This document shows, piece by piece, positions 15,140 to 40,470 of a stretch of DNA of 64,000 nucleotides; position 1 is the stretch's first letter, and every line of letters starts with the position of its first letter. The notes under the pieces were generated by a model. It saw only the letters and a program-made list of their open reading frames with translations, searched no databases and had not been told where the DNA came from. Origin of the DNA: Hyphomonas polymorpha PS728 (GTDB lineage: Bacteria; Pseudomonadota; Alphaproteobacteria; Caulobacterales; Hyphomonadaceae); contig NZ_ARYM01000001.1 in the NCBI RefSeq assembly GCF_000685315.1, forward strand, positions 1 to 64,000, read 5' to 3'. The position numbers were made by a program, and so were the translations under genes.

Positions 15140-16498
15140 ATGAAACGCCCTCACCTCTTGTCAGCGACGGCGATGCTGGCCGCGCTTGGCCTGTTCGCCG
15201 CCTGCGCCGCCACACCGGTGCAGCCCGCTGCCCTCGCCCCTGAAATGCCCACCGCAGCCACCACGACCGATGCCCGCTTCACCATCGCGGTGATCCCCGA
15301 CACGCAGAACTATACCGACTACACGCACCAGACCGCAGAAGGCTTCCCGTTTGATGCGGCCGATCTCTTCATCGAGCAGATGGGCTGGATCGCCGATAAT
15401 CTCGAAAGCCAGGGCGGGGATATCGCCTTCGTTACGCATGTCGGCGATGTCTGGCAGCACGGCACCGTCAAGATCGATCCCGAGCATGAGGCGCGCGGCT
15501 TCAAGGCCGTCCCCAATCCGATTTTCGACGCCCATCTCTCGCCCAGCGACAAGGTGAAAACCGTCGAGATGCCCAAGGCCCGGGAAGGCTTCGAGCTGAT
15601 CGCCGGCAAGACGCCGTTCTCCGTCGTTCCAGGCAATCATGACTATGACGCCACCTGGACCGATTCCAAATTCCCCCCGCGCGTTACCAGCCCCGCCGAA
15701 GTCGATCCCAACGACCTCACCTCCCTCGGCATGCTGCATGCTGGCGGGCTCGATAATTTCCGCGAAGTGTTCAATCCGGACTCTGCCTTTTTCAAAGACC
15801 AGCCCTGGTATGTTGCCTCCCATGATGGCGGCACGGACAGCGCCCAGATCTTCGAAGCGGGCGGCTATCGCTTCCTGCATATCGGCCTGCAGTTCGATCC
15901 GCCGGATACATCCCTTGTCTGGGCGTCTTCGGTGATCGATCAGTATGAGGGCCTGCCCACCATCGTCACCACCCACGACTTCCTCAACCGCAAGGGCGAG
16001 CGCGTGCCGAGCCCCGTTGTCGACAGCCATGCTGCCGATCCCGACGCACACAACACACCCCAGATGGTGTGGGACAAGTTCATCAGCCAGAACGACCAGA
16101 TCTTCCTTGTGCTGGCCGGTCACCAGCATGGCCAGTCGATGCGCGTGGATGACAACGCTTCGGGCCAGAAGGTCTGGCAGATCCTTGCCGACTTTCAGGA
16201 TCGCGGCCAGACCGCCAAGGATGCGGGACTTCAGTCCGCCTGGCCGGTTGGCATCGGTGATGGCTGGCTGCGCCTGATGACCTTCGATTTCAGCACCGAT
16301 GTGCCCAGCGTGAAGGTCTCCAGCTACTCCACGCACTACAAGAAGTTCAGCCGCGAAATGCCCGAATATGCCGCCTGGTATCGCGGCCATGAGCAGCCGG
16401 AAATGACCGATGCTGAATTCCACGACGCGGATGATTACACCATCACGCTGGAAGACTTCCGTATACGGTTTGACCAATCCGGCCGCGCCGTAAACTGA
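15140..16498 (+). CDS. Lipoprotein metallophosphoesterase (calcineurin-like)
   Basis: 452 residues from ATG 15140 (CCTGGAGA upstream). Residues 1-22 form a lipoprotein signal with Cys at the FAACAA boundary. The metal-binding blocks of calcineurin-like phosphoesterases are in order: VIPDTQNY, THVGDVWQHG, VVPGNHDYD, TTHD and VLAGHQHGQ. Metal-dependent hydrolysis of phosphate mono- or diesters is known for the fold; the substrate cannot be read from the sequence. It is monocistronic, with the rplQ terminator before it and a strong terminator after it. It would act in the periplasm or on the outer membrane. Confidence 0.88.
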   Translation: MKRPHLLSATAMLAALGLFAACAATPVQPAALAPEMPTAATTTDARFTIAVIPDTQNYTDYTHQTAEGFPFDAADLFIEQMGWIADNLESQGGDIAFVTHVGDVWQHGTVKIDPEHEARGFKAVPNPIFDAHLSPSDKVKTVEMPKAREGFELIAGKTPFSVVPGNHDYDATWTDSKFPPRVTSPAEVDPNDLTSLGMLHAGGLDNFREVFNPDSAFFKDQPWYVASHDGGTDSAQIFEAGGYRFLHIGLQFDPPDTSLVWASSVIDQYEGLPTIVTTHDFLNRKGERVPSPVVDSHAADPDAHNTPQMVWDKFISQNDQIFLVLAGHQHGQSMRVDDNASGQKVWQILADFQDRGQTAKDAGLQSAWPVGIGDGWLRLMTFDFSTDVPSVKVSSYSTHYKKFSREMPEYAAWYRGHEQPEMTDAEFHDADDYTITLEDFRIRFDQSGRAVN

Positions 16499-16531
16499 TT
16501 ATCCGGGAATTATTTTTCCGAAGAAGATCAA

Positions 16532-16567
16532 AAGGCTCCGGACAATTCCGTCCGGAGCCTTTCATTT
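16532..16567 (+). terminator. Terminator after the metallophosphoesterase
   Basis: AGGCTCCGGAC pairs perfectly with GTCCGGAGCCT across the loop AATTCC (16532-16560), followed by TTCATTTTC. Confidence 0.88.
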
Positions 16568-16572
16568 TCTGC

Positions 16573-16601
16573 TTGACGGTTTCATCCGTCTCCATCATAG
16601 G
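16573..16601 (+). promoter_or_regulatory. Candidate promoter of the RNA upstream of rtcB
   Basis: TTGACG at 16573-16578 with TCATAG at 16595-16600 (spacing 16). The -35 box is identical to those before rpsJ and rpsM; the -10 box is weaker. It comes straight after a terminator, so it is positioned to start a new transcript near 16605. Confidence 0.45.
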
Positions 16602-16794
16602 GCGCCTCCATTCAGCAACGGAGTGCCCGATGACGTATCGGCCCTTAACTCAGCCAAGGAAGGACGCGGGCCTGGAACAGGTCGCGGCGCGTTTCCGCAT
16701 GGAGGTTGCTGGATAGGGGCTGACGATCAGTCCCGAAGGCCCGAAAGGGCCTTATGCCCGCCCTCCGCGCGTTTCGCCCGGAGGGTTTTTTCTT
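16600..16794 (+). ncRNA. Candidate structured RNA or regulatory leader before rtcB
   Basis: This 190-base stretch lacks a convincing gene but is dense in pairing. Hairpin 1: GGGC..CTCC / GGAG.GCCC (16600-16628) with the ten-base loop ATTCAGCAAC. That loop is fully complementary (one G-U) to GTTGCTGGAT at 16705-16714, so a pseudoknot or a switch to a longer 16604-16619/16705-16720 helix is possible. An irregular hairpin lies at 16658-16696 with CCTG-GAA-CAGG at its tip, another at 16716-16734, then AAGGCCC-GAAA-GGGCCTT (16736-16753), and finally CCCTCCG / CGGAGGG with six Ts (16761-16794), a clear intrinsic terminator. It may be a free small RNA or a leader that controls rtcB by attenuation. 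I do not recognise the family; it is not a tRNA, and SRP RNA motifs are absent. Confidence 0.5.
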
Positions 16795-16864
16795 GTCTGA
16801 AATCCGAAGGGGCCGCGTGGAGGGCTTGAAAAGGAGGCGCTTCCGGGAGGAAGCTGTAAAGACG

Positions 16865-18076
16865 ATGAGTGAGTTTGAAGTCTTCGAAACCTACGCTGCG
16901 GGCCGCATCAAGGCCTGGGTGAAAGGTGTTGAGGTGGAGCCTGAAGCGCGCGAGCAGTTGGAAAACGTTGCCGGTCTGCCCTTCGTGCATTCGCATCTCG
17001 CCGTGATGCCGGACGTTCATTTCGGGCGTGGCGCGACCGTGGGCTCCGTCATCCCGACCAAAGGCGCCATCATTCCGGCGGCTGTGGGCGTCGACATCGG
17101 CTGTGGCATGATGGCGATCCGCACCAGCCTCACCGCGAATGATCTGCCCGATAGCCTTGCGGCCGTCCGTAGTCAGATCGAACGCAAGATCCCGGTCGGC
17201 AATGGCCCTGGTGGCAATCACAAGGATGCTCCGGCGCGTGCGGCGACTGCGCTGCGCAATTCGGGGCTGCCCGAGCGGCTCGATAAGGTGCTTGCCAAAC
17301 ACCGGCGCATCCAGCGCACGATGCTTGCCAGGCAGCTCGGAACGCTCGGCGGCGGTAACCATTTCATCGAGCTTTGCCTTGATGAAGAGGCCCGCGTGTG
17401 GGTGATGCTGCATTCGGGTTCGCGCGGAACGGGCAACATCCTCGGCACCTACTTTATCCAGGAAGCTCGCGAGGCGCTGGAGAAACGGGTGCTCGGCTAT
17501 CACGTGCCGGACAAGGATCTCGCCTTCTTCATGGAAGGAGAGCCCCTGTTCGGCGACTATATCGAAGCCGTCGGCTGGGCGCAGGACTATGCGCGCCTCA
17601 ACCGCGAAGTGATGATGGACCGTGTGCTGATGGCCATGCGGGAGGTGCTTCCGGCCTTCACGCTGGAGAAGTCGGCGGTGAACTGCCACCACAATTATGT
17701 GGAGCGGGAACACCATTTCGGCGCCGATGTCTGGGTCACCCGCAAGGGCGCCGTGCGCGCCCGCAAGGATGAGCTGGGTATTATTCCGGGCTCGATGGGG
17801 GCGAAATCCTTCATCGTGCGCGGCAAGGGCAATGCGGAGGCATTCTGCTCCTGCTCGCATGGGGCAGGGCGCACCATGAGCCGTGCCGAAGCCAAGCGCC
17901 GCTTCACCCTTGAGGACCACCTCGCCGCAACCGCCGGCGTGGAATGCCGCAAGGATGCCGGCGTGATCGACGAAACGCCGATGGCCTACAAGGACATCGA
18001 TGCCGTCATGGCGGCGCAGTCTGATCTGGTGGAAGTGGTCCACACCCTCAAACAGGTCGTCTGTGTAAAGGGCTGA
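16865..18076 (+). CDS. rtcB: RNA-splicing ligase RtcB
   Basis: 403 residues from ATG 16865, chosen because MSEFEVFETYAAGRIKAWVK aligns with known RtcB starts; a GGGAGG lies about 14 bases upstream, rather far. RtcB joins 2',3'-cyclic phosphate (or 3'-phosphate) RNA ends to 5'-OH ends using GTP and Mn2+. Metal and active-site motifs are present: VMPDVHFGRGATVGSVIPTK, VGVDIGCGM (Asp77, Cys80), TLGGGNHFIEL, VNCHHNYVEREHH, and CSCSHGAGRTMSR, which holds the histidine that is guanylylated. No rtcA or rtcR is adjacent. The preceding RNA and terminator suggest regulated expression. Confidence 0.95.
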   Translation: MSEFEVFETYAAGRIKAWVKGVEVEPEAREQLENVAGLPFVHSHLAVMPDVHFGRGATVGSVIPTKGAIIPAAVGVDIGCGMMAIRTSLTANDLPDSLAAVRSQIERKIPVGNGPGGNHKDAPARAATALRNSGLPERLDKVLAKHRRIQRTMLARQLGTLGGGNHFIELCLDEEARVWVMLHSGSRGTGNILGTYFIQEAREALEKRVLGYHVPDKDLAFFMEGEPLFGDYIEAVGWAQDYARLNREVMMDRVLMAMREVLPAFTLEKSAVNCHHNYVEREHHFGADVWVTRKGAVRARKDELGIIPGSMGAKSFIVRGKGNAEAFCSCSHGAGRTMSRAEAKRRFTLEDHLAATAGVECRKDAGVIDETPMAYKDIDAVMAAQSDLVEVVHTLKQVVCVKG

Positions 18077-18340: not shown

Positions 18341-18412
18341 CCCTCGCAGAATTGATCTGACCCTGCCCAGCGCGCCTAGTCGGCGCCTGCGCATAATCAG
18401 TTGGAGGTGATC

Positions 18413-19480
18413 ATGGGAACGCCCATGAGCCTGCCGGTGCTCCTGGCCGATAGCCGGGCGTTGCCGGTCACGCCGCTTATAGTTTTCCTTGCCGGTCCGC
18501 ATGCGGAAACAATCGCGCGCATCTGGCCTGCGCCGCATGAGGATTTCCTCATGCTGCCGTCGGCGCGCCGCCATGCCGCAGCCATTCTCGCCCTGCGGGA
18601 TGGCTACACCGCGCAGCGCGTTCAATGGCTCGCGAGCCGCGCGCGGGATAGTGAGCTGGCGGTCGAGCTTTTCGGCAGTCACCCGCCCGGCGGCGTGATG
18701 AAAGCGCTTGGGCGGATGGGCGAGGCGCTCTGGACGGAGGCGGCCTACGCCCAGTTCTTCGGTCTGTTTCGCGATGAGGCCGCGCGCCAGCTTATCCGTC
18801 ATATGGCGGATATTCAGTCTGCGGTTCTTTCGGTGGTCGCCGCGCTTCCCGCGCTGCTCCGCCGCCCGTCCATTGTTGCGGCCCTCGGGCCGGATATGGA
18901 AGCGGCGCGTTGCCTCGTTGCAACCTGGAACATGGCCCTGCATATCCGCGGTGAGGGGGCAAGCGCAGACATTGCCCGCCAGTTCGCCCGGGCGAAGGAT
19001 GCAACGGCCCTGTTCGAAATGGCGCTCTCGGCGATCCAGCCGCCAGCGTTCGGCGAGACGACTGCGGTGCCCACCCTTCCGGCGCCGTTCTCGCCGGTCC
19101 GCCGGATGGAGCATCTTCAGGCCGTCGCGCTGGAAATGCGCAACTGCTTGAGGGATTACGCGCCCGCTCTTGCCTCCGGCCGGATGGCGCTGTGGATCTG
19201 GCAGGGGGGAGGCGGCCCGGTGGCCGTCGCGCTCTGGCGGGATACGGGCGGCTGGCGCCTGGCCGAAGCGCTCGGGCAGGACAATGCCGACTTGCCTGAC
19301 GAGGTTCTCCACGAGATCCTCCCGGTCCTGAGGCAGGCGGGTATCCGCGCGGGCGAGCCCTGGCACCTGCTGCGCAGCCAGCTGACCGATCAGGTCCACA
19401 AGGCCCAGGATCTGCAGGGCGCGACACGCCCGGCGGCCAGCACGCGCCAACGGCTCTATCTCGGCTATCTCTGGGATTAG
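18413..19480 (+). CDS. PcfJ-like protein (tentative)
   Basis: 355 residues from ATG 18413, five bases after GGAGG. The first 250 residues are mostly helical and unfamiliar. In the C-terminal third the pattern LEMRNCLRDYAPALASGRMA, then PVAVALWRD..WRLAEALGQDN, resembles the core of PcfJ-like proteins (NCL..Y, a basic strand, then a G.xN end); PcfJ proteins occur on plasmids and mobile elements but their biochemical role is unclear. The gene lies 336 bases downstream of rtcB on the same strand and is followed by a small GC hairpin (19522-19544), so it seems a single transcription unit. The family call is an inference from a short motif. Confidence 0.4.
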   Translation: MGTPMSLPVLLADSRALPVTPLIVFLAGPHAETIARIWPAPHEDFLMLPSARRHAAAILALRDGYTAQRVQWLASRARDSELAVELFGSHPPGGVMKALGRMGEALWTEAAYAQFFGLFRDEAARQLIRHMADIQSAVLSVVAALPALLRRPSIVAALGPDMEAARCLVATWNMALHIRGEGASADIARQFARAKDATALFEMALSAIQPPAFGETTAVPTLPAPFSPVRRMEHLQAVALEMRNCLRDYAPALASGRMALWIWQGGGGPVAVALWRDTGGWRLAEALGQDNADLPDEVLHEILPVLRQAGIRAGEPWHLLRSQLTDQVHKAQDLQGATRPAASTRQRLYLGYLWD

Positions 19481-19585
19481 GCTGCGGAAATCTCGGGCGC
19501 CCCCTGACCCTGCGTCCGGCGGCGCCTTGCTTTGCAGCAGGCGCTTTCCGGGTTAGGCTGCCTGCCGGGAAAAGGAGGAAACATC

Positions 19586-20182
19586 ATGGCCGACGGACAG
19601 GAAGTAGAAACCCGCGCAAAATTCCGCGAGATGCTGGAAGGCTCGAAAGATGATTGGGACATCATCGCGGAGCATTCGCGCCACTTCAACAAGGGGCTGG
19701 CGGGGCGCGTCATCGACCATCTGAAACTGCTGGATGGCGATTTTGGCGGCTTCCCGGTCGACCGGCTGACCCATTCCCTGCAGACCGCCACCCGCGCCCA
19801 CCGCGATGGCCGGGATGAGGAATATGTCGTCTGCGCCCTGCTGCACGACATCGGCGATACGCTCGGCAGCTTCAACCATCCCGATGTTGCCGCCGCGATC
19901 CTCAAGCCCTTCGTGTCGGAAGCCAATCACTGGATGGTCGCCAATCACGGCATGTTCCAGGGCTATTATTTCTTCCACCATCTGGGGCTCGACCGGAACA
20001 TGCGCGACCAGTTCCGCGATCATCCGCACTTTGAATACTGCGCCCAGTTCTGCCACCTTTATGACCAGTCTGCCTTCGATCCAGACTATCAGAGCGAGCC
20101 GCTGGACTTCTTCGTGCCAATGGTGGAGCGCGTCTTCTCAAGGCCGAAGAACTCGATGTATCTCCGCAAGACCGAAGAATAG
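19586..20182 (+). CDS. HD-domain metalloenzyme, PhnZ-like
   Basis: 198 residues from ATG 19586 after AAAGGAGG. The HD metal ligands are seen as THSLQTATRAHRDGRD (first His), LLHDIGDTLGSFNH (HD pair) and NHWMVANHGMFQG (two further His), with D in HLYDQSAF. This spacing resembles the mixed-valence di-iron HD oxygenases such as PhnZ, which cleave 2-amino-1-hydroxyethylphosphonate, more than classical nucleotide phosphohydrolases. No phosphonate genes are near, so the substrate is open. A small membrane protein follows by 15 bases. Confidence 0.72.
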   Translation: MADGQEVETRAKFREMLEGSKDDWDIIAEHSRHFNKGLAGRVIDHLKLLDGDFGGFPVDRLTHSLQTATRAHRDGRDEEYVVCALLHDIGDTLGSFNHPDVAAAILKPFVSEANHWMVANHGMFQGYYFFHHLGLDRNMRDQFRDHPHFEYCAQFCHLYDQSAFDPDYQSEPLDFFVPMVERVFSRPKNSMYLRKTEE

Positions 20183-40016: not shown

Positions 40017-40060
40017 ATAGGGGATTGTGGGGGCTTACCTTTGCGCCCGCGATCCCCTAT
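40017..40060 (+). terminator. Long hairpin between the MpaB-like gene and ssrA
   Basis: ATAGGGGAT (40017-40025) pairs with ATCCCCTAT (40052-40060), with an inner GGGGC / GCCC pairing. There is no T tract, so termination is uncertain. The 3' end overlaps the candidate ssrA promoter. Confidence 0.5.
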
Positions 40061-40063
40061 ATT
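40035..40063 (+). promoter_or_regulatory. Candidate ssrA promoter
   Basis: TTACCT (40035-40040) and TATATT (40058-40063) with 17 bases between. The -10 box is good and the -35 weak. The predicted start near 40070 fits the 5' end of the acceptor piece. Confidence 0.4.
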
Positions 40064-40069
40064 GGCCCG

Positions 40070-40356
40070 GTCTTCGGACTATGGCGATAAACGCGCGTGT
40101 AATAAGCGGCTCGGACCCGGGGGCGGTACCCGGCGGCTCCACCACAAGCAGACCTCCCCGCAGGTCTGTTTCTGACGGGGCCGAAATAGTGTCGACGGAC
40201 GTGTAAAGACGAGGCTTTCGCTCGCATGAGCTGCGTTAGAAGCTCACAAGCAAATAGTTGCAAACGACAACTTTGCTGAAGGCGAACTGATGGCTGCGTA
40301 AGCGGCCGGATGTTTTCCGACCTTAACTCCTAGGGTATCAGACCCCTAGGCGGGGC
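40070..40356 (+). ncRNA. ssrA: Permuted two-piece tmRNA (ssrA)
   Basis: The order is that of alphaproteobacteria: acceptor half first, coding half second. The acceptor half ends at 40144 with T-stem CCGGG / CCCGG (loop GGCGGTA), the acceptor strand CGGCTCC and ACCA. About 32 bases are then removed (GACCTCCCCGCAGGTC hairpin). The coding half begins at 40177 with GGGGCCG, which pairs with CGGCTCC (one G-U). The tag frame at 40260-40301 reads ANDNFAEGELMAA then TAA, so with the charged alanine the tag is AANDNFAEGELMAA. A hairpin CCTAGGG / CCCCTAGG lies at 40329-40351. Exact outer ends are estimates. tmRNA rescues stalled ribosomes and marks the product for ClpXP. Confidence 0.93.
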
Positions 40357-40470
40357 CCGGAGGCGCCTGGCAACAGAAGCCTCCACCTTCTCCTCCTGGA
40401 AATTGCCTTGTGAACGCCGTGATTGGCGTCCACTCTGCGCGTCAGCAGCGATGGCGATCCGGGGGAGCCT

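Follow-up and report, generated by a model that had tools for sequence, protein, structure and literature searches.

A probable ribosome-mediated transcription attenuator upstream of rtcB in Hyphomonas and related Alphaproteobacteria

Results

The rtcB locus and its leader region

The window analysed here is a 64,000-nucleotide stretch of the Hyphomonas polymorpha PS728 genome, and rtcB and the leader features described below all lie on its forward strand. The gene (16865-18076) encodes a 403-residue RNA ligase that belongs to the RtcB family (Pfam PF01139, E = 1.8e-127) and in which sequence and alignment both place the guanylylation histidine, within the motif SHGAGRTMSR. RtcR, RtcA and Ro60 (TROVE) were not found in the genome, meaning that known routes of rtcB control are missing. 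Upstream, a metallophosphoesterase-like gene ends at 16498 and is followed by a strong terminator-like hairpin (16529-16564), usable on both strands. Downstream of rtcB lie a 359-residue ORF (18401-19480), for which Pfam and NCBIfam searches gave no match, and then a gene for an HD-domain protein (19532-20182). Further along the window there is a tmRNA gene of the alphaproteobacterial (permuted) type (40031-40387; Rfam RF01849).

An earlier note on this DNA, made from the sequence, had described the region before rtcB as a structured RNA, either a separate sRNA or a leader controlling the gene. Its promoter-like boxes are present as a putative -35 element, TTGACG (16573-16578), and a -10-like element, TCATAG (16595-16600); TTGAC and TCATA are invariant in an alignment of 24 related leaders, a strict sigma-70 scan does not list this promoter (16573-16600), and transcription would be expected to start near 16606-16608. 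Of 200 dinucleotide-shuffled versions of 16590-16795, all but two fold less well than the native sequence (z = -2.71). A covariance search of the kind that the note had proposed recovered the leader in related genomes, and no Rfam 15 family matches it above the gathering score.

Much of this supposedly non-coding RNA is covered by a 28-codon ORF that had been overlooked (uORF, 16630-16716), encoding the leader peptide MTYRPLTQPRKDAGLEQVAARFRMEVAG. It is preceded by a Shine-Dalgarno sequence, GGAG (16620-16623), and every genus member has an SD-like motif ahead of its uORF start. A small hairpin may form around the start codon (16627-16641): it is weakly supported, as some genomes retain it with other bases (for example UACCA/UGGUA in G002) and the register does not hold in all. 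At the far end of the leader, the rtcB Shine-Dalgarno sequence, AGGAGG (16832-16837), is followed by a hairpin (16839-16854) that is kept in relatives while its stems change; it lies between the SD and the start codon within 16832-16864, and only its folding would bring the SD near the ATG.

Mutually exclusive helices

The loop-to-tail complementarity that the note had seen is a long-range helix between segment 1 (16611-16619), just upstream of the uORF SD, and the last uORF codons (16705-16713), where pairing and ribosome occupancy exclude each other. Among 24 leaders of the genus, 192 of 216 cells of this helix are paired (89%), with double changes at three pairs. The outer stem that the note had drawn around the loop as part of its hairpin 1 (16600-16603/16625-16628) is not conserved, and it is probably not transcribed because it would overlap the -10 box; with that stem unconserved and sitting in the promoter, we rejected a pseudoknotted sRNA as a reading of the region. 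Similarly, an irregular hairpin proposed at 16658-16696 is reduced to its core inside the uORF, GGCCUG gaa CAGGUC (16669-16683), where all six pairs (16669-16674/16678-16683) show double changes, in 20 cells, and the rest of it is unsupported. Compensatory changes in relatives, which the note had named as a test, are thus found in both the long-range helix and the uORF hairpin.

Beyond the uORF, hairpin P2 (16716-16734; 144 of 144 cells paired) and the GAAA-capped hairpin P3 (16737-16752), whose stems persist with differing sequence in relatives, are present as described. The same is true of the intrinsic terminator (16761-16791), CCCUCCG ... CGGAGGG UUUUUU, whose stem (16761-16767/16779-16785) and six Ts stand between the uORF and rtcB, about 74 bases before the ATG at 16865. 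All 167 of its cells are paired, and a terminator scan missed it because the loop exceeds the maximum length of the tool.

What had also gone unnoticed is that the uORF itself carries a complement of the terminator 5' arm, the GGAGG at 16701-16705. The segment around it (segment 2, 16696-16709), which pairing, covariation and the predicted nascent fold support as the 5' strand of an antiterminator, pairs with 16762-16767 in 142 of 144 cells in the genus, and the resulting helix, which encloses P2 and P3, shares the 5' arm with the terminator, so that the two are mutually exclusive. Within the genus, GGAGG/CCUCC is near-invariant and gives no covariation signal, and GGAGG could also serve as an SD-like pause site. 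Only the variants of distant genomes argue for a pairing role: there, uORF tail and terminator arm change together, to GGAAGG/CCUUCC (G563, G635), to GGGAGGG/CCCUCCC (G222, G325) and to GGAGGGUUU/GAACCCUCC (G579). Complementarity to the terminator 5' arm reaches 16.7 at the uORF end, compared with 8.3-11.0 in windows further upstream, and in 298 of 300 permutations leaders fit swapped terminator arms less well than their own (p about 0.01), a figure that, like the pairing counts, is weakened as a probability by the relatedness of the genomes.

The uORF is conserved in frame and length more than in peptide

The start, the stop and the length of exactly 28 codons are kept in all 25 genus genomes that bear rtcB. 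The start codon is ATG in 24 and TTG in one, with GTG starts found elsewhere in the order, and the stop is TAG or TAA. In three genomes (G002, G005, G012) the uORF contains compensating in-frame indels, and frame +1 of the same region is interrupted in 22 of the 25. A pN/pS of 0.59 shows weak constraint on the peptide, and conservation of the last codons extends to their synonymous sites (pS 0.07), pointing to constraint at the RNA level. Taken together, the exact length, the weakly constrained peptide and the conserved synonymous sites of the tail suggest that translation of the uORF matters more than its product. Codons for F, M, Q, E, N and K are over-represented, and a codon-usage check found no run of codons for any one amino acid in the uORFs.

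The uORF could instead encode a small protein with a function of its own, whether alongside RtcB or in some other process, made from a unit with its own terminator while rtcB is served by other promoters. The fixed start, stop and length would fit such a protein, as would the residual constraint that the pN/pS value implies and a C-terminal M-E-x-x-G conserved in the genus. The middle of the uORF is hypervariable and tracks RNA pairing, however, and no peptide motif is common across genera. In addition, the conserved C-terminal codons, with their conserved synonymous sites, are those that form the antiterminator and the long-range helix. We therefore regard a small protein as improbable, although it is the best placed of the alternatives to an attenuator.

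A conserved element beyond the terminator

A second complement of the terminator 5' arm, 11 bp long (GCGUGGAGGGC, 16815-16825), lies behind the terminator and was likewise absent from the first reading. In the genus, 260 of its 263 cells are paired with the arm; it changes along with the arm in G048, G053, G487, G567 and G077, and it co-varies in both Hyphomonadaceae and Caulobacteraceae. It could pair with the arm only after read-through. The strong conservation and covariation of this element, with the hairpin between the rtcB SD and ATG, might be taken to mean that the leader acts mainly as a translational sensor at the rtcB ribosome-binding site, exposing or hiding the SD. Yet a strong intrinsic terminator stands in between, and pairing of the rtcB SD is not established by prediction, making control at that site somewhat less probable still than a small protein.

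The predicted nascent fold depends on ribosome position

We folded nascent RNA that ended just before the terminator 3' arm, placing a ribosome footprint at selected codons, and recorded the probability that the uORF tail captures the terminator 5' arm, P(antiterminator). With the 5' end set 24 nt ahead of the ORF, median values for the 24 leaders of the genus are 0.06 with no ribosome, 0.92 with a ribosome at the AUG, 0.95 at 25% and 0.84 at 50% of the ORF, falling to 0.00 at both 75% and the stop. A set of 38 leaders from across the order gave means of 0.52 with no ribosome, 0.82 at the AUG, 0.74 at 25%, 0.63 at 50%, 0.11 at 75% and 0.05 at the stop. With a longer 5' end and the ribosome at 25%, the mean for these 38 leaders is 0.71, compared with 0.10 for controls in which uORF and spacer were shuffled, and the observed value is the higher one in 36 of the 38. 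The dependence on ribosome position is a result of simulation, and the state without a ribosome varies: G000 itself, in which the predicted antiterminator pairs uORF tail and terminator 5' arm around P2 and P3, reaches 0.89 with no ribosome. In the full-length RNA the terminator is far more stable and P(antiterminator) is about 0; any switch must therefore be kinetic, as the terminator is favoured once its 3' arm is made.

The leader is linked to rtcB

In DNA and covariance-model searches of the genus, the distribution of the leader matches that of intact rtcB exactly: the leader turned up in all 25 genomes with the gene and was absent from the other 17. In one leaderless member, rtcB survives as a remnant of 25 C-terminal residues (L122, G026:C6:19212-19286), as if leader and gene had been lost together. 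Weak second matches of the covariance model R1 (E 1e-4 to 1e-2) were put down to chance, judging from the one that was inspected, a terminator behind a gene with a ribosomal protein S20-like product.

Across the order, rtcB is present in 135 of 398 genomes. We read the upstream regions of 157 rtcB loci, which come from the genus, family and order, with a sampling of the wider class. In about 116 of them, mostly within the order and some elsewhere in the Alphaproteobacteria, a short ORF of 18-46 codons (mostly 25-32) ends about 25-50 nt before a terminator of the CCUCC type, whose 5' arm reads CCCUCC or a variant of it; named records with this type of terminator include Hyphomonas, Ponticaulis, Maricaulis, Oceanicaulis, Brevundimonas, Caulobacter and Pelagibius. 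No such leader was seen at rtcB loci of Xanthomonadales, where RtcB is about 68-70% identical and the gene mostly lies behind another one. At one locus (L110, G050:C1:901200-902407) rtcB matches fall in two overlapping frames, covering residues 1-264 and 264-403, reflecting either a frameshift or a sequencing error.

Discussion

In its arrangement of loop-to-tail helix, uORF tail and terminator, the leader follows the classical 1:2 / 2:3 / 3:4 attenuator layout, and we consider it most probably a ribosome-mediated attenuator of rtcB transcription. ORF and helices are conserved, the alternative folds exclude one another, the predicted fold depends on ribosome position and, in the genus, the leader is strictly linked to rtcB; transcription, translation, read-through and the signal are inferred. 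Transcription would begin just before the leader ORF. With no ribosome loaded, the stretch upstream of the SD would pair with the last codons (1:2), hindering the antiterminator, and the terminator (3:4) would form; a ribosome that completes the ORF would cover the GGAGG tail, and the terminator would form again. In contrast, a ribosome held up or slowed before the midpoint of the ORF would break helix 1:2 and free the tail, which could then pair with the terminator 5' arm (2:3) before the 3' arm is made, letting RNA polymerase continue into rtcB. The signal would be impaired translation, due for example to cleaved or uncharged tRNAs or to damaged ribosomes, and since such damage is of the kind that RtcB repairs, the arrangement would close a feedback loop. 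That the uORFs have no codon run for a single amino acid suggests that the leader would respond to impaired translation in general.

The earlier note is thus partly confirmed as to structures, which are real and conserved although the ORF, their key element, had been missed, and half right in interpretation. Of the two options that it offered, an attenuating leader is supported and a separate sRNA is not; of the switch or pseudoknot that its layout implied, a switch holds up, one apparently driven by the ribosome, and the pseudoknot gives way to the protector helix 1:2. A stand-alone sRNA serving RtcB as substrate or partner, comparable to the Y-like RNAs found beside rtcB elsewhere, would account for the discrete promoter and terminator and has a precedent in the YrlA found at other rtcB loci of the class. 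The conserved uORF frame, the lack of a match to YrlA or any other Rfam family and a genome devoid of Ro60 make it very unlikely, and identity with Y RNA or YrlA in particular was rejected, covariance models and the tRNA-like module giving no match and the Ro60 (TROVE) gene being absent from the genome. A protein- or metabolite-binding riboswitch with an incidental uORF, for which the extensive conserved structure might speak, is hardly credible, as it leaves the exact ORF length, the interchange of ATG, TTG and GTG starts and the ribosome-dependent folds unexplained.

Attenuation of rtcB would not be without parallels. The closest known case is PA5471.1/armZ of Pseudomonas aeruginosa, where a leader ORF precedes an RtcB-like gene, finished translation leads to the 3:4 terminator, ribosome stalling leads to read-through, and the switch of armZ (PA5471) is triggered by a defect of tRNA maturation in a cca mutant that lacks the CCA-adding enzyme (PMC12057347, PMC13041342). 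The likeness is drawn from gene family and layout, and ArmZ is an anti-repressor of an efflux pump, whereas the Hyphomonas gene is an alphaproteobacterial rtcB with the catalytic histidine motif. Amino-acid operon attenuators of the trp and ilv type, including the ilv leader noted in Caulobacter (PMC4117421), share the same 1:2 / 2:3 / 3:4 logic and a leader ORF that runs into segment 2. They differ in having a run of regulatory codons and in controlling biosynthesis rather than RNA repair. Within the Alphaproteobacteria, a DUF1127 gene of Sinorhizobium meliloti has an attenuator that also uses a uORF to report translation efficiency through termination, although there the attenuation element consists of C-rich codons at the uORF start, in contrast to the GGAGG at the uORF end of the rtcB leader (PMC12218461). 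Finally, Salmonella rtcBA is induced by broken tRNAs through RtcR, which likewise couples RtcB synthesis to tRNA damage but is a CARF activator that acts in trans and binds tRNA halves (PMC7790460); RtcR is absent from the Hyphomonas genome. A leader that senses faltering translation would fit both this system (PMC7790460) and PA5471.1/armZ (PMC12057347, PMC13041342).

In the literature searched, which omits most subscription journals, we found no earlier description of leader-peptide attenuation of a catalytic rtcB: the mechanism is of a known kind, and its use on a catalytic rtcB across an order appears undescribed. For bacteria without the tRNA-fragment sensor RtcR, the leader suggests a direct way in which RtcB may be induced, namely ribosome stalling on the leader ORF. 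Together with armZ, this would, if true, tie RtcB-family genes of distant proteobacteria to translation stress by leader-peptide attenuation, and the model can be tested in culturable Hyphomonas, Caulobacter or Brevundimonas. More tentatively, and with slightly worse than even chances in our estimation, the leader may be part of a widespread alphaproteobacterial circuit, in which a leader ORF of nearly indifferent sequence reports the health of tRNAs and ribosomes and controls rtcB in place of RtcR, with a second helix, in which the post-terminator element would pair with the terminator arm only once transcription has read through, adding a further layer.

Some of the remaining rtcB loci carry Y-like RNAs instead of the leader. 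YrlA (RF02553), a tRNA-mimic non-coding RNA and a different element from the rtcB leader, stands immediately before rtcB elsewhere in the class, and was identified at two loci with more distant rtcB genes of the class and family (L105:3000-3132 and L108:1431-1563, in G438 and G059). Several more loci (L094, L101, L102 and L089) look tRNA-like by eye and score below the Rfam cut-off.
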